IMG/VR virus record: IMGVR_UViG_3300001720_000025
Span: 980 to 24,872 of that record
Length of the DNA: 23,893 nucleotides
Reading direction: 5' to 3' (one strand)
Origin: a virus
This document shows positions 1-21,138 of the stretch, piece after piece; position 1 is the stretch's first letter; each line of letters starts with the position of its first letter. The position numbers and the translations under genes are program-made. The notes beneath the pieces were generated by a model, which saw nothing but the letters and a program-made list of their open reading frames with translations, did no database searches and was not told the DNA's origin.

Positions 1-41
1 GCTGTAGGCACAGGCGCTGTAGGCACAGGGGTAGGCACTGG
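1..41 (-). repeat. Tandem 15-bp repeats encoding a Pro-Thr/Val/Ala linker
   Basis: The + strand carries gctgtaggcacagg at 1-14 and again at 16-29, followed by gtaggcactgg at 31-41. On the coding strand these give alternating Pro with Val, Thr and Ala. The 14-mer recurs exactly at 5275-5288, inside the gene for the 1604-residue tail protein. The 11-mer recurs exactly at 4775-4785, inside the 219-residue gene. The repeat continues past the window edge. Confidence 0.8.
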
Positions 42-593
42 ACCTAAACATACGTTATTACCAGCACAATCAAATTTATCTGTTACCGTACCGTCATTAG
101 CTATTAAAAATGTAGCCTCTCCTGTTGCCGGTGAAACTCCAGGTACAGCGTTATAATATTGGTTACTACCTATAAAAGGTAATGTGAGATTTGAGTCTAG
201 CCAAAAATGCTTTGTTCCACAAACTATAGCACTTTCAGTTTGAACATCTGACCATACAGTTACTGGACAGTTTACACAAGAGGTTGGTTTAACTTGTGAG
301 CCGTTTCCTTGTACAGCATTAAATTGCCATGAATAAGAAGTAGGAGGGGTGGCTGAAGGTGCTGGGGTAGGAGCATTACAACTTGAACATCCGTTTAGTC
401 CATAATCTGCTGCGGGATAAACAAACTGTCCGCTATTAGCAGTTCCATATACTCTCCAACAATTACCTACACCTTGACCAGGCGCAAGACCATATATTAA
501 AAAAACATAATTAAATGTTTGCTGTGCCTGAAATTGTGCATCGACAATAACACTTGCGTTATCACAACTTTGTAATTGATAATAAAAAGCCAT
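1..593 (-). CDS. Modular tail/adhesin-like protein with Pro-rich linkers (partial, 3' end outside window)
   Basis: An ATG at 593-591 opens a frame that stays open to the window edge, giving 197 residues and no stop. It begins MAFYYQLQSCDNASV. The layout is beads on a string: a first domain of about 68 residues ending in a CSSC pair, a short Pro/Thr/Ala linker (about 69-83), a second domain (about 84-183, with VNCPVTVW, HFWLDSNLTLPF and FDCAGNNVC), then a second linker with the PVPTPVPTAPVPT pattern that runs off the window. The second domain has the same 'Y/W-x-D-x-x-L/M-T, x-F-x-G-x-N-x-Y-Y' pattern as the C-terminus of the 1604-residue tail protein (4971-9785), and the linker DNA is shared with two upstream genes. 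It follows the modification-enzyme cassette and may have its own promoter in the 47-base gap. Likely a virion surface or receptor-contact protein; exact role unknown. Confidence 0.75.
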   Translation of the reverse strand, partial: MAFYYQLQSCDNASVIVDAQFQAQQTFNYVFLIYGLAPGQGVGNCWRVYGTANSGQFVYPAADYGLNGCSSCNAPTPAPSATPPTSYSWQFNAVQGNGSQVKPTSCVNCPVTVWSDVQTESAIVCGTKHFWLDSNLTLPFIGSNQYYNAVPGVSPATGEATFLIANDGTVTDKFDCAGNNVCLGPVPTPVPTAPVPT

Positions 594-640: not shown

Positions 641-1183
641 TTAGAGCAAGAAGCCTGATATCTGAAGAGTATACTTATCTTTCATGCCTGCATTTGCTGA
701 TAAATGAAGTGGTTTAGAATCCCATATGTATCCGTCTCCAGCAGTCCAGTTATCGGATGTTTTCCAAATATTATCTTCTTCAGATTTGTATTGCAACATA
801 TGTCCAACTTTCCAGGGCTCAAGATATATATTAGCTCTTACCTTTGTTCTTTTGTCATCAGGAAACCTTTTGTTTATTTGAAAAAAAGTATCTCTATGTA
901 AAGCAATGGTATTTCCTGGAGGCTGTAATATGCTAGATATAGTTATAACTTCCATTCCAGTTTGTTTTCCTAAGTCTTTAAAATCTACCTGTTTGTCTGT
1001 GTACCATAGCTGTTGAATTACAGTATTATCTTTAGTATATGTTTCTCCTAAACCATATTCTTCGTGTATGTCTGTTAGCTCATCAAGCTGATGCGCCAAA
1101 CAAGTTCCTTTATGAACTGAATAGTCTTGCATTGGAGGTAAAAAATAACTCCAATCATAATCTAATTTTATTTTCTTTAACAT
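641..1183 (-). CDS. 2OG-Fe(II) dioxygenase, Asp/Asn-hydroxylase-like
   Basis: A 180-residue protein in the cupin/double-stranded beta-helix dioxygenase class, which hydroxylates substrates using Fe(II), 2-oxoglutarate and O2. The iron-binding facial triad is visible as H96-x-D98 (ALHRDTFF) and a distal H160 (KPLHLSANAG). Lys170, ten residues after the distal His, is where the 2-oxoglutarate carboxylate is usually held. The sequence between them (VRANIYLEPW, then NWTAGDGYIWD) and the H-x(3)-N after the distal His resemble the aspartyl/asparaginyl beta-hydroxylase-like group rather than the P4H-like enzyme at 3684-4283. Its ATG overlaps the carbamoyltransferase stop by one base (TAATG), so translation is coupled. 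It is the last of four linked modification genes. The substrate is not known; a virion protein side chain or a sugar are both possible. Confidence 0.75.
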   Translation of the reverse strand: MLKKIKLDYDWSYFLPPMQDYSVHKGTCLAHQLDELTDIHEEYGLGETYTKDNTVIQQLWYTDKQVDFKDLGKQTGMEVITISSILQPPGNTIALHRDTFFQINKRFPDDKRTKVRANIYLEPWKVGHMLQYKSEEDNIWKTSDNWTAGDGYIWDSKPLHLSANAGMKDKYTLQISGFLL

Positions 1184-2643
1184 TATAATATATATTTATT
1201 GGTTATTACTTCATCTACTCCTGTGTTTTCTTTCATCCACATAGCCTCTTTATAAGTGTTTAATATTGGTTTACCTTGAATATTAAAAGAGGTATTTAAT
1301 AATACAGGGTGATACTCTAGCAGGTCATATATAAATTTATTTTGTTTTTCAGTAACTGTTTGAAGCCTACAAGTTTTATCTACATGGGTTATTCCAGGAA
1401 ACTGACCGTCTTTTACTTTTACATTGTGAGTCATCCACCTGTGCCTGCCATAAGACTTAAAATATTTATGGGCATCTTCTTCTCTACACACTCCAGCAAA
1501 AGGTCTAAACCACTCTCTGTTTTTTACCTCTGAGTTTAATCTTTCTTTTACTCCTTGTTTGGGCGTACAAAGTATAGAGCGATTGCCTAAAGCTCTAGCA
1601 CCGTGTTCTGCTCGTCCTTGTACTAATCCTATTATCTTACCCTGTAATAGCATTTGAGACACTTCACTTGTGCTTATATCTTTACCCTTAGGCATATCAT
1701 CGTATGGTTCAGAGCCTAGGTAAGCACTGTCTAAGGGCACAGAAGGTTTAATTAAACTCAACAAACATCCTAATGCTATACCTCTATCATCTGAATTGGG
1801 AGAAACAAAAGCTTTGTATGTGGTGTTGTTTAATATATTCATAGCGCCACCACCAGCAAATTGTATTTCTCTATCTGGATATTTAAATATAAATGGCAAT
1901 ACAATATCGGCAAAGTTTTTTTCAAACATATACTGATTAGCATAGGCAAGGTCTTTAGATTTTTCATCTTTTTGATGACAACCACAAAACATTTCTGACC
2001 AATTTTGATGAGCTTTATCTACCTCGTTGCTGTTACTCATGTCATATAAACGAGTTACATATCCAAACATTTCATCATCTCTTTTTCCATATGATGATAG
2101 CCCCATAGCTTTTCCGGCATAAGTTAAATTACCAAACCACCAATCTCTTTCTCTTACTATGTCGCCCATATAATGACCTAGAGCTGCATAGGGAACACAT
2201 AAATCTTTTTCTGATTGATGTATAAGTTGAGGCTCTTGTCCTTTACTTCCTAAATAAATATTAAAATGCCCATTGTCAGAACCGCCATCAAAAGAAACAA
2301 TTAACGACTCCTGCACTACACTATGATACATTACATTACAAGCGTGCGCCACATGATGTGGAACATAAACAATATTGTTAGCTCTAAGGTGTTGAGTTTG
2401 GTCTTGAGGCCAAGAGTTTATCATAGCAAAATCATACTCTTTTGCACCGTGCTTAAATTCAAAGTAATCTAATATTTCATTTAAAACTTCAATAGGATTT
2501 AGTATAGGATGATAAAAGAAAAAAGCTGCATTTTTTATTTGCACCCATCTTTCTAGCTCAACCACCTCAAGTATATCTCCGCCATAAGATATTGCCACTG
2601 CTGCATTATGCGACCCGTGTATGCCTAAATTAAATTTTGCCAT
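1183..2643 (-). CDS. NodU/CmcH/TobZ-family O-carbamoyltransferase
   Basis: A 486-residue protein, somewhat shorter than TobZ. The family makes carbamoyl-adenylate from carbamoyl phosphate and ATP, then transfers the carbamoyl group to a hydroxyl, usually on a sugar or antibiotic. Hallmarks are in order: the N-terminal Kae1-like motif LGIHGSHNAAVAI; the metal-binding HHVAH (about 96-100); DGGSDNGH (119-126); AGGGAMN (263-269); DDRGIALG (about 285-292); the C-terminal YrdC-like/Carbam_trans_C signature GRAEHGARALGNRSIL (343-358); FRPF (379-382); and LLNTSFN (448-454). I chose the ATG at 2643 because MAKFNLGIHGSHN is the natural family N-terminus; an ATG at 2727 would add 28 unrelated residues and lie deep in the upstream gene. 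It overlaps the glycosyltransferase by 14 bases and the next dioxygenase by one. All catalytic blocks seem intact. Confidence 0.92.
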   Translation of the reverse strand: MAKFNLGIHGSHNAAVAISYGGDILEVVELERWVQIKNAAFFFYHPILNPIEVLNEILDYFEFKHGAKEYDFAMINSWPQDQTQHLRANNIVYVPHHVAHACNVMYHSVVQESLIVSFDGGSDNGHFNIYLGSKGQEPQLIHQSEKDLCVPYAALGHYMGDIVRERDWWFGNLTYAGKAMGLSSYGKRDDEMFGYVTRLYDMSNSNEVDKAHQNWSEMFCGCHQKDEKSKDLAYANQYMFEKNFADIVLPFIFKYPDREIQFAGGGAMNILNNTTYKAFVSPNSDDRGIALGCLLSLIKPSVPLDSAYLGSEPYDDMPKGKDISTSEVSQMLLQGKIIGLVQGRAEHGARALGNRSILCTPKQGVKERLNSEVKNREWFRPFAGVCREEDAHKYFKSYGRHRWMTHNVKVKDGQFPGITHVDKTCRLQTVTEKQNKFIYDLLEYHPVLLNTSFNIQGKPILNTYKEAMWMKENTGVDEVITNKYIL

Positions 2644-3694
2644 AATATAATTCACCCCAAAGGTCTTGCCAGTTGTAAGGTTCTGACTCCCAAGGGTATT
2701 TATTGTACTTAATTTCTTTTCTGTCAAAGTTTAAAGACTTTCTGTGATGGTCTATTTTACCATTGTAGCCTCTAACTATATTTATGTAGTCACTATATGT
2801 GGACATCCTAGAACCATAAAAGTTTTTAGCATTTGCACATATAATAGTGTCTAAAACTAACTCATGGCTTTTGCTAGACTGTGTTAAGTCTTTTAAGAAA
2901 ATAGTATTATATTTTTCTTTTAAAAAATCAAACATTGATAAGTCAGGTTCATCAGTGGCTATGTATAAAGGTACTGATTTTCTGACAGTTCCATCTAATA
3001 ATGTTTCAAGATTCTTATAAAGGTCTTCTGTCCATTGTGTCTGTGTATATTTAAAATCTCCTCTTCTTATATGCACAGCGTCATAATCACCGGGCATAAG
3101 TTTGTTTGACTCTACAAAAAACTCTTCTCTAAACCTTATACCATCTTTTACTTTTTGCTGTATTATTTTTCTTGCTTTATCGTTAGGAGGATATACATGG
3201 TATCCAAAATGTCCTAATAAATTTCTAGGAAAATGTATGATTTTATCTTTACACATAATATCATATAAAAATTCTCTGCTGTCACAATTAAATTCGTTAA
3301 AGTGATTTATATCTTCTATACCATGATATATAAGACCTTTACCTATAAACTTTTGAGGCCCCCAGTTTATGTCTGTATCGTTAAACATAACACATTTTAT
3401 ATCTTTACATATACCATCATAGTTTTGTATGTCGGAAGAATAGTTTACAAGGTCAGTATCTTTATAATCGATACAATCAAAATTATCTGTAAAAGCTTTT
3501 TTATCTAGTATTTCCCAGATATCCCAAAAAGTTTTTTTGTCGTGATGCTCTGCTAAAAATAAACAATACCCTGGAGGAGGTAATATAATTTTTCTTCCTG
3601 AAACATATGACATAGCGCCAACCATCTCATAGCACATCCGAATATTATTAAAACCACCCCACCACCAATCAAAAGATATATACCTATCCTTCAT
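2630..3694 (-). CDS. O-fucosyltransferase-like glycosyltransferase
   Basis: A 354-residue protein with three signatures of the GDP-fucose protein O-fucosyltransferase / NodZ / FUT8 superfamily: an N-terminal WWGGFNNIRM with a following GRKIILPPPG (about residues 11-42); the donor-binding motif VHIRRGDF (207-214); and a C-terminal ANAKNFYGSRMSTYSDYI with VRG close behind (about 287-308). These are the blocks that contact GDP-sugar in the family. I chose the ATG at 3694, which overlaps the upstream dioxygenase stop by 11 bases. An ATG at 3796 would add 34 residues read only from inside that gene. No signal peptide or membrane segment, so a cytoplasmic enzyme acting before virion assembly or on a soluble acceptor. 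Whether the donor is GDP-fucose and whether the acceptor is Ser, Thr, hydroxyproline or a glycan cannot be read from the sequence. Confidence 0.8.
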   Translation of the reverse strand: MKDRYISFDWWWGGFNNIRMCYEMVGAMSYVSGRKIILPPPGYCLFLAEHHDKKTFWDIWEILDKKAFTDNFDCIDYKDTDLVNYSSDIQNYDGICKDIKCVMFNDTDINWGPQKFIGKGLIYHGIEDINHFNEFNCDSREFLYDIMCKDKIIHFPRNLLGHFGYHVYPPNDKARKIIQQKVKDGIRFREEFFVESNKLMPGDYDAVHIRRGDFKYTQTQWTEDLYKNLETLLDGTVRKSVPLYIATDEPDLSMFDFLKEKYNTIFLKDLTQSSKSHELVLDTIICANAKNFYGSRMSTYSDYINIVRGYNGKIDHHRKSLNFDRKEIKYNKYPWESEPYNWQDLWGELYYGKI

Positions 3695-4283
3695 AAGGAG
3701 TAAAGGGTTCTGCGTAAGTAAAGTGCGTGTATATATTGTCAAAGTAAGTTCCTTGATATTCATCAAGTCTTCCGTGCATACAACATCCAGATTCAAACAT
3801 CATCATTTGACCAGGTTCTACGTCTACACCCCACCACTGTTTGTCGTGGTCTTGAATGTTTAAATTCCAAGGAGCATCTTTTCCAAGAGTAATACTTGAA
3901 GCCACATGATGCGTATCTTGTCTGTCAAAATGTGCATCAAAAATAGTATTTGCACTATAGCTTCTTACTCCATATACCACCGCTGGTTTTAAGATTCTGC
4001 CGCACCACTCTTCATGTAGGTCTAACATTGTGGCTTTTATAAAATCAACTTTATCTTTATATTGATTTATGTCTTGTAAAAAACTTACTTGTTTTGAATA
4101 TGTTCCTTTGCCAGGATAATTTTCTTCTTTAAATTTAGCCCTATCATAAAAATCAACAAGTATGCTATATACCGCTGGAGGGACATCTAATACTTGAAAA
4201 CCTTTTTTAGTTGCTCTTGTTATTGGCTCTAATGGATTAGGGTCATATGGTATATACTCCCTTTCTTCTTTTATTAGTATCAT
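3684..4283 (-). CDS. Prolyl-4-hydroxylase-like 2OG-Fe(II) dioxygenase
   Basis: A 199-residue protein with the P4H-type core: YGVRSYSANTIFDAHFD gives H118-x-D120, VEPGQMMMFESG is the strand and turn before the distal His, and CCMHGR gives H170. Downstream, GTYFDNIYTHF matches the ending of P4H-like enzymes that carry H-G-R. The position ten residues after the distal His, a Lys in animal P4H, is a Tyr here; Arg172 in HGR is a possible replacement for 2-oxoglutarate binding. Prolyl hydroxylases act on Pro in Pro-rich peptides. Notably, the gene directly upstream, 19 bases away, encodes a protein with about 100 residues of X-Pro dipeptides. It is the first gene of the coupled four-gene cassette. 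The function call rests on motifs; the substrate is inferred. Confidence 0.78.
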   Translation of the reverse strand: MILIKEEREYIPYDPNPLEPITRATKKGFQVLDVPPAVYSILVDFYDRAKFKEENYPGKGTYSKQVSFLQDINQYKDKVDFIKATMLDLHEEWCGRILKPAVVYGVRSYSANTIFDAHFDRQDTHHVASSITLGKDAPWNLNIQDHDKQWWGVDVEPGQMMMFESGCCMHGRLDEYQGTYFDNIYTHFTYAEPFTPYEG

Positions 4284-4302: not shown

Positions 4303-4962
4303 TTAATAACAGATTGAAGTTGGTGAGCCAATGTTTCCGGTGCTTGGACTCATGGTTACTGTATTAACTTGAGCGCAAATTGTTTGAGCTGGCTGACCTT
4401 GAGGAATGGTTCTACTTGCTGAGGAACCATTACACGCTGTGTAATAGAAAAAAACTGTGTTAGAGCTACTATTACTTATTTGATAGTTATAGCAAGTAGC
4501 AGTTGGAGCTGGCGCAGGAACTGGTACAGGCACAGGCTCAGGAGCTGGTTCAGGCACAGGTACATAAACAGGCACTGTTACTGGCGCTGGAACTGGAGTC
4601 GGTATGGGCACAGGTGAAATAGGCACTGGACTAGGCGCTACTGGCGCAACTGGACTAGGACTAGGACTAGGAGTAGGGCTCGGTGCTACTGGTGCTACTG
4701 GACTAGGCACTGGACTCGGTGCTACTGGCGCTGGTGCAGGAGCTGGTACAGGCACGGGTATAGGTGCTGTAGGCGTAGGCACTGGTGTAGGCACAGAGCA
4801 AGACTGCCCTGCAAATAATACACCAGATACTTGTTGTCTTACAATAGTGTCGTCAGAATAAAATCCATTTGCAGAAACAGTAGACAAAGCAGCGTCATCA
4901 TAAACTGTTGTTGCGTTTGTAAAACTTGCTGTGTCAAAATAATATGTTCCTAATGATGCCAT
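4303..4962 (-). CDS. Proline-rich (X-Pro repeat) tail/adhesin-like protein
   Basis: A 219-residue protein in three parts. Residues 1-54 are a small domain (YDDAALSTVSANGFYSDD) similar to modules in the 1604-residue tail protein (4971-9785) and in the partial gene at 1-593. Residues about 56-154 are nearly unbroken X-Pro dipeptides where X is Ala, Val, Ser, Thr, Ile or Glu. Residues about 155-219 form a Cys-containing beta-type domain (CYNYQISN, YYTACNG, QTICAQVN) of a kind seen in surface proteins of Bacteroidetes and their phages. The start lies eight bases after the stop of the 1604-residue tail protein, so it is probably part of the tail. The Pro tract should be an extended stalk. It is immediately followed by the prolyl-hydroxylase-like gene, which makes it the first candidate substrate. 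Function otherwise unknown. Confidence 0.85.
   Translation of the reverse strand: MASLGTYYFDTASFTNATTVYDDAALSTVSANGFYSDDTIVRQQVSGVLFAGQSCSVPTPVPTPTAPIPVPVPAPAPAPVAPSPVPSPVAPVAPSPTPSPSPSPVAPVAPSPVPISPVPIPTPVPAPVTVPVYVPVPEPAPEPVPVPVPAPAPTATCYNYQISNSSSNTVFFYYTACNGSSASRTIPQGQPAQTICAQVNTVTMSPSTGNIGSPTSICY
4503..4797 (-). repeat. Low-complexity X-Pro coding repeat
   Basis: About 295 bases of degenerate 6-bp units on the + strand (ggcact, ggtgct, ggagct, ggacta), encoding alternating Pro and Ala/Val/Ser/Thr. Some blocks recur, for example actggactaggc- and ggtgctactgg-type strings. Such arrays can expand or contract by slippage or recombination, so stalk length may vary between relatives. Confidence 0.85.
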
Positions 4963-4970
4963 TTTTTAAT

Positions 4971-7900
4971 TTAATTGCAGACACCTGCGGTGTCTATATT
5001 TGATGCTGTTCCTAAATCTGTCATTCTGAAAATTCCTTGTGACTGTCCATAACCTTGATTTGGTTGTCTTATACCAAAGTAATTATTTGCACCTTGGAAT
5101 AGTTGAGTCATTGCTTGGTCTGTATAAAATTGCGTATTGTTTGCAAATGTTGTAGTAAACGAACTAGAACTACTATACAGTGCATTTGAAGAAAACGGAC
5201 AAGTTGAAGGGCTAGTAGCTGTTCCTGTTCCGGGCTCTATAAGCCATGTATAAACAGACACAACTGGCGCTGGTGCTGTAGGCACAGGTGTAGGACTAAA
5301 GCTACATCCAGTGCACGCATCACTACTACTTGTGTTTGAGTAACATAATTCAGCAGATGTAGAGTTTCTATAATCCCATATTAAATACAAGAAATTACCA
5401 CCTACTGGCAATGTAAAGTCAGCTAAGTATTGAGTAGGGTTAGTAGAACTTACAATAGGAGTAGCTTCTGTAGATGTAGATAATAAATTATTTATATCTG
5501 TTGCATTATTGCCGTAGTATGTACTTGTTCTTAAATATCTAAACTCATTATTTGCGGAGTTGAACACAAAATTATCAAAGTTCTGTTTTCTACTTATAAT
5601 AGAAACTGTAGCTCCATCTCCAGGAATTTTCCCTGCTCCTTGAGGCCCTGATACTTCTGAAAAATTAGACACTATAGGATTTGTTGTACTTGATGAAAAC
5701 TCTATTTGTGTAGGATGCGGAGGTGAATTAAATGTTCCATCTGTCCATCTGTAGTCATTTGTTATAAATAGTCCTGCATCTGCATTACTTGTAACTGTAA
5801 CATTAAATACAGTCATGTTTACAGCTTGAGGACAGCCTGTAGTTATTTCTATAGTATCGGGCAATAAACTGTCTTGTGTTACTGTTAGAGATACTGTGCT
5901 AGAAGTAACACTGTTTTTATTAAAAGTAAGTTTCCCACTTTGGTATACCGTACCCGTAGTATGAGAAACACCATCGTAGACTGCTGTAATTGTATATCCT
6001 GTTCCTGTCAATGGCATTTCAGTAACTATATCATCACTGTTTAATTCTGTAACTGTATTCTGACTTACCTCGGTAACTATATTATCAAAACCTTCAAATG
6101 GTATAATGTAATCTATATCAACAAGACCTAACAAATTACCTACGTCAACGCAATAAGTAAAACTTACAGACGGCATAATAGTTAAGTTCCTCGTGGTATC
6201 ACAAGGGAAACATTCTGTGCTTACCGGAGGCAAAAGAATATTAGAGTGTAATACATATTCATTCATGTATGGGTCAAATCCCCCTAGCTTTTGAGTTGTA
6301 AATGCTTGTATAAATAAATCTCTAAACCATGAGCGCATACCTAGCTCTGATATAACCTGAAGCTGCTCATCTCTACCGCCTATCCCCACTAAATTTATTA
6401 CTGCTCCTCTTTTAGAATCAGTAAAATATTTGTTAGGACCCCATACCGAAAAGCTTTCAGGGTTTTCACTAATACCATACTCTTCTATTCTAGCAATTTG
6501 TTTTCCTAATACTTCAGGAACTGCCGTAACAACACCTCCGCCAACAGCATCACTTAATAGGTTTACTCCAGCCAACACATAAGAAATTTTGTCTTCTTGC
6601 AGAGTTAGTATGTCGGTTTTTCTTCCATACAATAATTGAATAGGACCAAATGAATCCTCTAACGGTTTAAAGTTTAATAATCCAAGATTAAACTCATTAA
6701 ACTTGTTTACATTTGTTTCATCATTATATACGCCACTATAAGTTAAATCTGCAAATCTGTGCGCTTGTTTATAATCTACGTTTGAAGTAGAGGTGACTCT
6801 TTCTCCTATGTTTAAAGTTTTTCCTGTAATAGAATCTAAAACCTTATAACTTTCTACTCCATTTCCAAAAGTAAAACAATCATAAAACTCTGTATCAACT
6901 ATAGCTGATTGACTAGATGTTTGTGTTTGTACATTTCCAGTATGCATTCCGTCTGCACTTATAGAAAAAGATAAATGGTTTTCATACCATACATCTGGAA
7001 GAGCATCTGTAGGTGGTGTTTCAAAAACAACAATTGAATCGGCTCTATAAACCTGTATGTCTGCTGTAACTGTAGAGCGTCTTTTAGCTCTTGACAATGT
7101 GCCTCCGCATCTTACTGTACCAGTAATTAATAATGTTAACTGATTAGTTGATGAGTCTCTGTAAAATTTATAATAATTAGTGCCTTCAGCAGTAGAAATA
7201 TTTGTAGGAGAACTAGCTGTGCCAGACTCATAAGTATTTGTTATGCTACCTGTATTACCTCCAACCTCCGTAACTGCATTATTTAACACTACCTCCGCAT
7301 TATCTCCATTCCACCAGTCTTGCATATTTGCATAAGTAGTTGAAGATATAAGCTCTACGTTTAATTCGCTTATTCTGCGCTCGCATTTAGCGTTTCCTTG
7401 ACCTACTCCAAGTCTTTCTTGTCTAATAGACAATACAATCCTACTCCCTGACGGAACAGTATAATCTACATACTGACCTCCTGGAGTAGCAGGGTCTGAG
7501 TTCATTGGATAGGATAAAATAGGATATTGATTAGCGCTATTTTCAATAGCTGTTAATGAGCCTGGAGTTATTATATCATCATCTCCCCTAACTGTAGAAA
7601 AATTATTAGGATTTATCTTCATGTAAGTGCCGGCAGGTGATATAATGTCAGCACCCGCTGCATCTTTTAAAAAGTCTGCTGACTTAGCTTCTTTTTCTAA
7701 TACAGTTGCTTCAACACACCTTAATATAGGACCATTACTATCTGACTTTACAAAATACCTGTCTCCGGTTTCTACTTTATTCGCATTCTCTCCTTCTAAT
7801 AAAAAATAGGTAGCATTACTTAAAGGGTCTTGATAAAAAATATTTGAGTATATAGTATCGTATGTAGATTCAGAAGGATTAAGAACAAACTTATACCTTG

Positions 7901-9785
7901 TAGCCCAGCTTGGAGCTATTTGCTGAGTAGGTATAGAAACTTGAATTGTGTTTTTTGATATAGAAGCAGAACACGGTACTTGAACTGTATTATTTGGACT
8001 AACAAGCGCTGTAGATGAGCGATTAAAACTGTCCATATATACTATACCTATTTCGTATCCACGATTGCTATGTAAACTTCTTGTAGTGTCGGTAGTTCTA
8101 AAATTAGCTGTAGCAGCGTTAACCTCATAAAACTCATAAGCATTGTTAGCACCATCTACATAATTCATTGCTATTAACTGTAAACCTATAGTATTACTAG
8201 CCGGAGTTGCAACAATATTAATAGGCTGTCCAGCACCTGATATACCACTTGCTGTTTTAGTGTAAGTACTTAAAGATGATGGTAACGCACAATTTACCTG
8301 GTCAGTTAAAGTAGCCCCATTACAAGCATTAGGAACTGTTTGAATGTTAGAAGATGTTCCTATTTTTTCTATAAAATCCGTGCTTGTAGCTAATGCATAT
8401 ACATTAACAAAAGTAGTTGGCAAAACATATTCAAAAACTATCTCAGTATTTGCTGTAGTTCCTCCAGGAGTAGTTCCTGTAAATTGACTATGTGTAAGAG
8501 TAAAATCTAAAGTTATACTTGCTCCTGCTGTTAAATCAAGAGTGCTTCCGTTTTGTTTAGATAAATCAAAATAAACGATAGAGCTATTTATAGTAACAGG
8601 CGTAGGGCCATAAGTATAACTACCGCTTCCTGTTGAGTCTAAAATTTCAGTAGTTGCTATTTCTGAGCTAATTAATGAAGCGCTATATTCTAACTTTATA
8701 TCTTCATCAAATTTATCTTTTAAATTATATCCTTCTGTATAGTTACCAAAAACCAATCGGTTTCCCATAACTGTTTGAGATTTTGCCAGCAAAGGAACAT
8801 TGTCATAAAGCCTTAGTATTTCAGAACTAGGAAGTAAAGTAAATATTTTACTGTTATCAAAGGTATAAGTATAAGTAGTATTATCAGCATACCCTAAGTT
8901 TTCTTTATCTAAATATTCAATTACTTTTATATTAGAGGTTGTAGACTCTTTAAATAAAAGTTCAATTCCCGTTACTAAGTTGCTCCCTGAATTAAAATTA
9001 ATAACAGCTGCATTTTTGGTATTTTTCATACCTTCATTTAAATAACTGTTATAGCTAAAATTAAAAGTAGAAGGTGTAAAAGCGGGGTCACTAAATTGTG
9101 ATGTAGCAGAATACTGATTGTCAGCATATTTATACCTATAAGCAAATGATATAAATCTTTCTTCTAAAAAATCATCTTGCTGCCCCGGAACATTTAATGT
9201 TTGAATAGTAGGAGACTCTATAGGAGGTCTTTTTATAACCAGTATAGACTCAGCACTGAAGCCATCTAACAAATTGTTAGGAGCATTATACCTTGTATTT
9301 ACATTTATAAATCTAGGAGGATTTAAATTATCTGTAAAAAATAATAAATTATCAACTAAATTAACCCCTGTAATTAAATTGTAAACACTAAAGTTTAAAG
9401 TTGTATTTAAATTCCCACCGTCATTTAAACTAATTAAGTGATAAGTAGTAGAATTATCTGTAATATTATAAGAAACTAAAAGGTCTATTTTTGAAGTAGC
9501 GCCTTGAGTATAAGCTGGGTCATGAACAAACCAATAAATAGTTTCATTAGCTCCATCTTCAAATGCGCCTATGCATCTAGCATTATTACTTAACTCTACA
9601 TCATTAAACATCAATGTTGTAAGTATGGTATTACCCTTAGAATTTTCAACAGAGCCTACCTCTGTGCTTTCTGTAGAGCCTAGTCTAACATTTAATGCAT
9701 CAACATATTCACCGTTTGGTAAAAGCCTTTCATCAAGGCTTTTATTCATACGGCCAGCTATAAAATTTCTTTGAATGTTTGCCAT
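4971..9785 (-). CDS. Large tail stabilization-like structural protein
   Basis: A 1604-residue protein whose N-terminus (FIAGRMNKSLDERLLPNGEY, then VDALNVRLGS) matches my recollection of the large tail 'stabilization' proteins (P22 gp10-like role) of podoviruses infecting Bacteroidetes, including crAss-like phages. The body is Ser/Thr/Asn-rich with little charge, typical of beta-rich tail proteins. At about residue 1495 a CTGC motif leads into a Pro-rich linker (SPTPVPTAPAP, DNA 5261-5300), followed by a C-terminal domain of about 95 residues that contains YTDQAMTQLFQGANNYFGI, similar to modules in the neighbouring genes. The gene starts one base after the upstream connector-like gene's stop. 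It may therefore combine a tail-hub function with an exposed adhesin tip. No frameshift seen. Naming is by family resemblance, not a search. Confidence 0.75.
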   Translation of the reverse strand: MANIQRNFIAGRMNKSLDERLLPNGEYVDALNVRLGSTESTEVGSVENSKGNTILTTLMFNDVELSNNARCIGAFEDGANETIYWFVHDPAYTQGATSKIDLLVSYNITDNSTTYHLISLNDGGNLNTTLNFSVYNLITGVNLVDNLLFFTDNLNPPRFINVNTRYNAPNNLLDGFSAESILVIKRPPIESPTIQTLNVPGQQDDFLEERFISFAYRYKYADNQYSATSQFSDPAFTPSTFNFSYNSYLNEGMKNTKNAAVINFNSGSNLVTGIELLFKESTTSNIKVIEYLDKENLGYADNTTYTYTFDNSKIFTLLPSSEILRLYDNVPLLAKSQTVMGNRLVFGNYTEGYNLKDKFDEDIKLEYSASLISSEIATTEILDSTGSGSYTYGPTPVTINSSIVYFDLSKQNGSTLDLTAGASITLDFTLTHSQFTGTTPGGTTANTEIVFEYVLPTTFVNVYALATSTDFIEKIGTSSNIQTVPNACNGATLTDQVNCALPSSLSTYTKTASGISGAGQPINIVATPASNTIGLQLIAMNYVDGANNAYEFYEVNAATANFRTTDTTRSLHSNRGYEIGIVYMDSFNRSSTALVSPNNTVQVPCSASISKNTIQVSIPTQQIAPSWATRYKFVLNPSESTYDTIYSNIFYQDPLSNATYFLLEGENANKVETGDRYFVKSDSNGPILRCVEATVLEKEAKSADFLKDAAGADIISPAGTYMKINPNNFSTVRGDDDIITPGSLTAIENSANQYPILSYPMNSDPATPGGQYVDYTVPSGSRIVLSIRQERLGVGQGNAKCERRISELNVELISSTTYANMQDWWNGDNAEVVLNNAVTEVGGNTGSITNTYESGTASSPTNISTAEGTNYYKFYRDSSTNQLTLLITGTVRCGGTLSRAKRRSTVTADIQVYRADSIVVFETPPTDALPDVWYENHLSFSISADGMHTGNVQTQTSSQSAIVDTEFYDCFTFGNGVESYKVLDSITGKTLNIGERVTSTSNVDYKQAHRFADLTYSGVYNDETNVNKFNEFNLGLLNFKPLEDSFGPIQLLYGRKTDILTLQEDKISYVLAGVNLLSDAVGGGVVTAVPEVLGKQIARIEEYGISENPESFSVWGPNKYFTDSKRGAVINLVGIGGRDEQLQVISELGMRSWFRDLFIQAFTTQKLGGFDPYMNEYVLHSNILLPPVSTECFPCDTTRNLTIMPSVSFTYCVDVGNLLGLVDIDYIIPFEGFDNIVTEVSQNTVTELNSDDIVTEMPLTGTGYTITAVYDGVSHTTGTVYQSGKLTFNKNSVTSSTVSLTVTQDSLLPDTIEITTGCPQAVNMTVFNVTVTSNADAGLFITNDYRWTDGTFNSPPHPTQIEFSSSTTNPIVSNFSEVSGPQGAGKIPGDGATVSIISRKQNFDNFVFNSANNEFRYLRTSTYYGNNATDINNLLSTSTEATPIVSSTNPTQYLADFTLPVGGNFLYLIWDYRNSTSAELCYSNTSSSDACTGCSFSPTPVPTAPAPVVSVYTWLIEPGTGTATSPSTCPFSSNALYSSSSSFTTTFANNTQFYTDQAMTQLFQGANNYFGIRQPNQGYGQSQGIFRMTDLGTASNIDTAGVCN
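5261..5300 (-). repeat. Pro-rich linker DNA shared with flanking tail genes
   Basis: The + strand 5275-5288 is gctgtaggcacagg, identical to the two copies at 1-14 and 16-29 and differing at two positions from 4766-4779 in the 219-residue gene. It encodes PTPVPTAPAP near the C-terminus of the 1604-residue protein. Confidence 0.75.
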
Positions 9786-20472: not shown

Positions 20473-20578
20473 TTTCTTTTAAAGCGTTTTTTAAATGATA
20501 TTTCTCCCAATGCATTCTATATTCAAATCCTTCAGCAAATGTTTCATCACATTGACTACACTTAATAGAGTGTTTCAC
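20438..20578 (-). CDS. C2H2 zinc-finger microprotein
   Basis: A 46-residue protein starting with GTG at 20578-20576, overlapping the GroES-like stop as GTGA, and ending with TGA at 20440-20438 inside the next gene. Residues 7-28 give Cys-x2-Cys-x12-His-x4-His, with Phe four residues after the second Cys (CSQCDETF) and a Tyr at the usual hydrophobic core position before the first His, exactly the spacing of a classical C2H2 finger. The rest is a basic helix (NALKENELRRIKEKNN). Tight overlaps on both sides and an intact motif argue for a real gene although it is very short. DNA, RNA or protein binding is possible; it sits in the packaging region. Confidence 0.75.
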   Translation of the reverse strand: MKHSIKCSQCDETFAEGFEYRMHWEKYHLKNALKENELRRIKEKNN

Positions 20579-21138
20579 AATACCATTGTAATGTGATGGT
20601 CAAACATTCTATATAATTTTTCACCCTCAACATTAAACTCATATTCAGTGTCTGGCTGAAAGGTAACTAAATCTCCTTCTTTTAATCCTTTACTTAACAA
20701 GTATTTATTTATATACCTAATCTTACCCATAAGCGGCTCTTCGGCAAAAGGCTTATGAATGTATGAATCAGTAACTGGTATTGGTTTTACAAAACAATAT
20801 TTATCATGACAGTGCCACTGATTGTTTTTGTTATACATATAAAATTGCATAGTGTCTACAAAAAACATATCGTCTTTAAAAAAACTTTTTCCGCTTTTTT
20901 GACGACCCTTCATGTCATTGTAAAACTTAAATACATTATGATGTACTAATAATATATCTCCAGGCTCTATCTCTCCCTGATATCCTAAAGGAGTAGAAAC
21001 AACTACTGCTTTTCTGTTTGATGCTAAGTGATTTTCTTCTGAAGTACTTGTTATAAAATCTATGCCCCCTATTTTTTTAGAATTATCATATCTTTTACCG
21101 GCTAGAGGTTTTACTATAAAATAAAATGGTGACCTCAT
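20575..21138 (-). CDS. GroES-like (Cpn10-type) tandem-domain protein
   Basis: A 187-residue protein with two similar halves. The first has FIVKPLAGKRYD, then EIEPGDILLVHHNV; the second has CFVKPIPVTDSY, then GLKEGDLVTFQPDTEYEF and GEKLYRMFDHHITMVL. The pattern 'V-K-P ... G/E-x-GD-x-V/L ... strand ... I' is that of chaperonin-10 beta-barrels, present twice. Phage co-chaperonins such as T4 Gp31 replace host GroES so that capsid proteins fold, which fits its place in the morphogenesis region. A GroEL-binding mobile loop is not obvious; the stretch after the first VKP (NSKKIGGIDFITSTSEEN) is the best candidate. It could instead be a structural protein with the same fold. Confidence 0.6.
   Translation of the reverse strand: MRSPFYFIVKPLAGKRYDNSKKIGGIDFITSTSEENHLASNRKAVVVSTPLGYQGEIEPGDILLVHHNVFKFYNDMKGRQKSGKSFFKDDMFFVDTMQFYMYNKNNQWHCHDKYCFVKPIPVTDSYIHKPFAEEPLMGKIRYINKYLLSKGLKEGDLVTFQPDTEYEFNVEGEKLYRMFDHHITMVL

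Follow-up and report, generated by a model that had tools for sequence, protein, structure and literature searches.

A four-gene cassette in an uncultured marine phage that probably hydroxylates, glycosylates and carbamoylates X-Pro stalks of the virion

In a 23,893-nt stretch of DNA (the window), which lies within a 24.9-kb viral contig, we found four tightly coupled minus-strand enzyme genes at positions 641-4283, placed in the virion module between two X-Pro-rich genes. We consider it probable (roughly 0.7) that the four genes form a cassette for the hydroxylation, glycosylation and carbamoylation of virion stalks. Since the enzyme sets and the proline repeats were gained and lost together in relatives, these viruses probably put a coat of sugars on their own stalks, in much the way that plants do with their cell-wall proteins. 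The features concerned are the following.

1-593, minus strand: first part of an X-Pro-linker protein with a virion C-domain, which runs on beyond the window to a length of at least 524 aa; second proposed substrate
641-1183, minus strand: oxB, second putative 2OG-Fe(II) dioxygenase; H96-x-D98 and H160; fold match only
1183-2643, minus strand (ORF open from 2727; likely ATG at 2643): NodU/TobZ-type O-carbamoyltransferase; PF16861, PF02543, phrog_1601
2630-3694, minus strand (ORF open from 3796; likely ATG at 3694): O-FucT-family glycosyltransferase; PF10250, 1.7e-11; HIRRGDF motif
3684-4283, minus strand: oxA, putative 2OG-Fe(II) dioxygenase, OXA domain; H118-x-D120 and H170; predicted fold
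4303-4962, minus strand: 219-aa protein with an X-Pro stalk, proposed substrate; 47 Pro, six X-Pro runs
4971-9785, minus strand: virion structural protein of 1604 aa whose C-terminal linker (SFSPTPVPTAPAPVV) is short and Pro-rich; lies next to the cassette on its upstream side; phrog_14478, 3.8e-228

The source is an uncultured marine bacterial virus with a Bacteroidota-type podovirus backbone, and its kin include Cellulophaga phi18:3, the Flavobacterium elemo phages and ctfjg026; the nearest cultured relatives infect marine Flavobacteriia. All large genes of the window are on the minus strand, in the order terminase, portal, head and other structural genes, the 1604-aa structural protein, the 219-aa X-Pro protein, the four enzymes and the X-Pro-linker protein of at least 524 aa. 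The cassette ORFs are open at 641-1183, 1183-2727, 2630-3796 and 3684-4283. The serial overlaps of 11, 14 and 1 bp reported in the first-pass annotation were reproduced exactly once internal ATGs were used (M35 of the O-FucT enzyme at nt 3694, M29 of the carbamoyltransferase at nt 2643). Its placement of the cassette between genes with X-Pro linkers was likewise correct, both flanks being X-Pro rich. Other contigs keep the gene order of the cassette and encode proteins 75-99% identical to those of the window, so the cassette is not an effect of assembly or chance. At 20575-21138 the window also carries a phage-encoded GroES-like co-chaperonin amid the structural genes (phrog_13932, 9.7e-18).

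Homology indicates that the proposed substrates are virion proteins. The 1604-aa protein is homologous to gp114 of Cellulophaga phi18:3, a structural protein annotated from MS/MS. The protein of at least 524 aa, when read past the window edge, has the linker PVPTPVPTAPVPTAPVPSP..., and the phi18:3 protein that matches its C-domain is 241 aa long, the length of gp115, which is structural by MS/MS.

The AlphaFold2 (AF2) model of oxA (pLDDT 89.7) matched the 2OG-Fe(II) dioxygenase fold, a double-stranded beta-helix (DSBH) with the iron triad (H118, D120, H170), at Z 13-14; the HxD motif and the distal His are conserved across homologues. Its best structural matches included the Pseudomonas putida prolyl hydroxylase (P4H; 4j25, VIA Z 13.7) and PHD2 (about 13), tied with BesD/HalB/SnoN, that is, with lysine halogenases/hydroxylases and SnoN. 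Counting against a role on stalks, these nearest folds include enzymes that act on free amino acids and natural products. oxA had no match in Pfam, and neither oxA alone nor its 55-row profile gave a P4H sequence match in Pfam, NCBIfam or PDB. The Lys that anchors the C5 of 2OG about 10 residues past the distal His is also absent, position +10 being Tyr180. Judged by its sequence, oxA is not a canonical P4H (PF13640/P4H alpha), and the earlier description of it as prolyl-hydroxylase-like holds at the level of the fold and fails at that of the canonical family. Because of this, and because the phage type of the window lacks the P4H domain in the contigs examined, we infer proline as the target of oxA; the predicted 2OG folds of oxA and oxB leave the substrate unfixed. 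Profile searches of PDB with the oxA and oxB sequences produced no genuine match. The PHROG families that match oxA (phrog_2954 and phrog_3531) carry the label ferrochelatase, which is almost certainly wrong for 2OG oxygenases.

The family assignments of the two transferases in the first-pass annotation stood up well. The O-fucosyltransferase-like enzyme scored 44.7 bits against PF10250 (curated cut-off 31.5), aligning residues 39-344 with profile positions 1-325 of 326, and its homologue in cyanophage S-SCSM1 has 32% identity. The carbamoyltransferase matched Carbam_trans_N (PF16861, 3.2e-47) and Carbam_trans_C (PF02543, 1.1e-9), both over cut-off, as well as phrog_1601 (1.8e-97); its PDB matches were novobiocin carbamoyltransferase, GdmN and TobZ, and it has the motifs PHHVAH, GARALGNRS and LLNTSFN. 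It reached 89.4 bits against the NCBIfam NodU equivalog, for which the cut-off is 1000. By sequence it is securely a member of the NodU/TobZ superfamily and not NodU itself. oxB had no match in Pfam. Its weaker model (pLDDT 67.5) resembled the 2OG-Fe(II) dioxygenase fold at Z about 10.8, in keeping with the earlier call of a second dioxygenase, and an oxB orthologue gave a sub-threshold PhyH match (0.0037). Over 12 loci oxB is 53-99% identical, and among the cassette loci compared it was never seen without the carbamoyltransferase and the O-FucT enzyme. Since oxB travels only with the carbamoyltransferase, a step on the glycan side is suggested for it.

The slot between two virion genes was common to contigs that carry the 1604-aa gene and to contigs found by means of a fused oxygenase. 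In most relatives the first enzyme of the slot is a protein of 380-440 aa in which a true P4H domain is fused N-terminal to OXA; in the window OXA stands alone. The P4H domain of the relatives belongs to PF13640, keeps H-x-D, H and K intact (the Lys lies in HEGMPVTSGKK), and matched in PDB the P4H of Bacillus anthracis (4.6e-25 to 1.1e-24), human C-P4H (1.1e-16) and Chlamydomonas P4H (2e-14); vCPH (5c5t), the P4H of PBCV-1, was among the fold and sequence matches. The genes that follow P4H-OXA are exchangeable. One set consists of the O-FucT enzyme, the carbamoyltransferase and oxB, and another of a radical SAM/SPASM enzyme and a PF11397 GlcNAc-transferase (1.2e-35), while a 276-aa family, DXD glycosyltransferases, dTDP-glucose-dehydratase-like enzymes and a DegT aminotransferase are further swappable members. 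In four contigs (L259-L261 and L268) P4H-OXA precedes the O-FucT enzyme, the carbamoyltransferase and oxB, which is the set of the window plus P4H. P4H and PF11397 occur in one locus in relatives such as L012 and L294; this pair, characteristic of the Skp1 type, is not in the window. No P4H domain was present in the examined contigs of the window's phage type, which reach 59 and 65 kb and are possibly incomplete.

Several of these families were also seen in other arrangements. The 276-aa family (FFQxQH start; L014:11311-12141), seen in 24 distinct P4H cassettes, matched nothing in Pfam or NCBIfam and is a candidate new glycosyltransferase or modifying enzyme. In ten distinct loci the radical SAM/SPASM enzyme (L012:18256-19164) accompanies the PF11397 enzyme within the cassette; the former is possibly an epimerase of stalk peptides or sugars. 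Many cassette phages have, after the second stalk gene, a 136-aa gene that is acetyltransferase-like (MxxNIRPLxESDYEQILVGWWKDW; L029:20245-20655 and equivalents), and in ctfjg026 a gene of similar size and place is annotated as an N-terminal acetyltransferase subunit. On a 65-kb viral contig of another backbone (L294:8382-17012), the gene of a fibre protein with TPAP and collagen-like GPP repeats precedes those for P4H-OXA, an O-FucT/PF11397 fusion, a further PF11397 enzyme, a carbamoyltransferase and oxB. Between two (TP)n-rich genes, a 229-kb viral contig (L160:1-9101) carries a glycosyltransferase gene of PF11397 (2.1e-67), with no PF13640 oxygenase found in that record. In L323, L333, L346 and L364, PF11397-type genes come directly after a Pro-rich gene without P4H or OXA, perhaps relying on a host hydroxylase or using a different acceptor.

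The presence of the cassette followed the presence of X-Pro linkers. Among 48 informative contigs, found only via the neighbouring structural gene, OXA and a Pro-rich linker were both present in 16 and both absent from 32 (16/16 versus 0/32). In 38 of 39 cassette phages the 219-aa protein has an orthologue with a Pro-rich linker; among 25 cassette-less phages none has the linker, and the N-terminal domain persists without it in all 25. Similarly, the downstream C-domain lies behind a long Pro-rich extension in 44 of 57 cassette phages and is a stand-alone protein of 178-288 aa without X-Pro in 28 cassette-less phages; L087 and L090, tallied as exceptions, are both cassette phages in which the big gene was matched. 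A Pro-rich gene was located within 4 kb of 48 of the 51 OXA loci and of 8 of the 30 loci with only the related glycosyltransferase; the loci from the fused-oxygenase query were selected for that gene and not for Pro. The p-values of these counts overstate independence because the phages are kin: the backbone tree needs only some three independent changes, a number that cannot by itself reach significance (the sign test is underpowered). The pairing recurred in seven of ten backbone groups (main, 68/68; L301-303; L242/245; L291; L294; L313; L321), and three OXA-bearing groups had no adjacent Pro-rich gene. The ten groups share few upstream proteins and were defined by strict clustering, since transitive clustering lumped everything. 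The strongest lines of evidence are the comparison of the 219-aa orthologues and C-domains and the recurrence over backbone groups; taken over these surveys, the association of the cassette with Pro-rich tail genes proposed in the first-pass annotation was borne out.

X-Pro runs are common in viruses without the cassette enzymes, as a random virome search showed, so X-Pro alone predicts nothing and the useful direction is that the cassette implies X-Pro. The composition of the runs differed. In cassette linkers X is Thr, Ser, Ala or Val in 92% of cases, which agrees with the plant-type residues noted earlier, and runs with any charged X made up 3 of 88, versus 42 of 63 among other viral X-Pro runs. 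In the window type X is Val-rich (37%) and Thr-poor (14%) and in P4H types Thr-rich (49%), these figures coming from few loci; OXA alone may use different sites. The idea of virion decoration was upheld by the co-variation, the recurrence and the X residues of the hydroxyproline-rich glycoprotein type, but had to be amended in that a canonical P4H is absent from the window cassette.

From these observations the likely targets of the enzymes are the linkers of the virion proteins encoded next to them. There oxA, oxB or both would hydroxylate residues of the polyproline-II-like X-Pro stretches of the stalks, with Pro the most likely site. The O-FucT-family enzyme would then place a sugar onto the hydroxylated linker or extend a glycan there, the carbamoyltransferase would cap a sugar hydroxyl with a carbamoyl group, and oxB could carry out a further oxidation coupled to the stalk glycan. 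The order of genes in the cassette says nothing on the order of action. Such a coat might stiffen the stalks and shield them from proteases and from recognition by hosts or competitors.

The same cassette could serve the same targets without hydroxyproline, with the O-FucT enzyme glycosylating Ser/Thr of the SP/TP repeats and oxA and oxB hydroxylating a sugar or another residue. The classical acceptors of O-FucT-family enzymes are Ser/Thr or glycans, contigs of the window type lack the P4H domain, and oxB occurs only with the carbamoyltransferase, all of which would suit such chemistry. We nevertheless regard it as possible rather than probable, since P4H-less cassettes keep oxA, whose closest folds include prolyl hydroxylases, and in most relatives a true P4H is joined to the oxA domain. 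X is also less often Thr when P4H is absent (14% versus 49%), which makes Ser/Thr ill-suited as the main site.

An action away from the virion is less probable still. It is unlikely that the cassette modifies a host surface polysaccharide or lipooligosaccharide, for superinfection exclusion or host masking, and came to lie among tail genes by chance insertion. Phage carbamoyltransferases are widespread, and in Synechococcus phage S-SCSM1 a group of O-FucT, 2OG and carbamoyltransferase genes lies beside sugar-nucleotide genes with no adjoining Pro-rich gene; the paper on that phage assigns similar genes to the host cell wall or to metabolism (PMC9602691). Against this stand the co-variation with linkers of the same orthologous virion proteins, repeated in several backbones, and the finding of peptidyl-prolyl hydroxylase domains, for which no part in making polysaccharides is known. 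A role as auxiliary metabolic genes with no bearing on the virion, reprogramming the 2-oxoglutarate or nitrogen metabolism of the host, would accord with the published reading of cyanophage 2OG oxygenases (PMC9602691); this explanation seems very improbable, as it leaves unaccounted for the glycosyltransferases, the position, the co-variation and the swapping of enzymes within one slot. Stand-alone P4H-like genes of cultured phages (Erwinia Y3, Salmonella Sen-NF, Microcystis Mel-JY01) were considered and set aside as not belonging to this system, their neighbours not being annotated as tail genes and the cassette enzymes being absent.

Hydroxyproline glycosylation of Skp1, the plant hydroxyproline-rich glycoproteins, the P4H of PBCV-1 and phage 2OG oxygenases and carbamoyltransferases are all known already, the last two having been read as metabolic genes (PMC9602691). 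In the open-access literature searched we found no paper on this cassette or on the combination tied to a phage's own stalk genes, and one may exist elsewhere. If modification of the stalks is correct, it would account for a class of phage 2OG oxygenases and glycosyltransferases usually filed under auxiliary metabolism and would add hydroxyproline-type glycosylation to bacterial viruses. Enzymes and likely substrates would lie side by side in one locus, together with natural presence/absence controls, and the role of a variable stalk glycan coat in virion protection or in the tuning of adsorption would become testable.

Among phages, the closest arrangement is the glycan region of S-SCSM1, where an O-FucT enzyme, an OXA-type 2OG oxygenase and a NodU-type carbamoyltransferase are close together. 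It differs in having no adjacent Pro-rich gene and no oxB match and in including sugar-nucleotide biosynthesis, and it was interpreted as cell-wall or metabolic genes (PMC9602691). As summarized in PMC9301287, which terms the viral use of P4H cryptic, Chlorella virus PBCV-1 encodes a P4H for which Pro-rich viral proteins are likely substrates (Eriksson 1999). The relatives of the window resemble it in both respects, a virus-encoded P4H domain and Pro-rich viral proteins as likely substrates, although PBCV-1 is a virus of a eukaryotic alga. We know of no PBCV-1 cassette with an O-FucT enzyme or a carbamoyltransferase.

In the Skp1 pathway of Dictyostelium and Toxoplasma a peptidyl P4H (PhyA) acts first, followed by Gnt1, the Skp1 hydroxyproline GlcNAc-transferase of the PF11397 family, and by the addition of further sugars including fucose. 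The hydroxylation step and the pentasaccharide of the pathway are described in PMC9485057. Like that pathway, relatives of the cassette carry P4H and PF11397, and there is even an O-FucT/PF11397 fusion among them. Unlike it, the proposed phage targets are virion linkers and not one Pro of a ubiquitin-ligase adaptor, and the window cassette lacks P4H and Gnt1-type genes and adds a predicted carbamoylation. Plant hydroxyproline-rich glycoproteins (arabinogalactan proteins and extensins) have X-Pro repeats in which X is Ala, Ser, Thr or Val, and the phage linkers share this pattern; moreover, the phage P4H domain has a match (2e-14) in Chlamydomonas P4H-1, whose structure was determined together with a (Ser-Pro)5 peptide (3gze). 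The phages differ from plants in their glycosyltransferases, with no arabinose or galactose machinery seen, and in having no secretory pathway. We give an even chance to the wider proposal that many uncultured bacterial viruses possess a modular hydroxyproline glycosylation, in which P4H and OXA, as a double 2OG oxygenase, together with exchangeable glycosyltransferases, carbamoyltransferases and sugar-nucleotide enzymes build strain-variable glycans on virion polyproline stalks. The window would then represent a variant whose hydroxylated acceptor is made by OXA without P4H, and the system as a whole would be what corresponds in bacterial viruses to the cell-wall glycoproteins of plants and to the Skp1 pathway.
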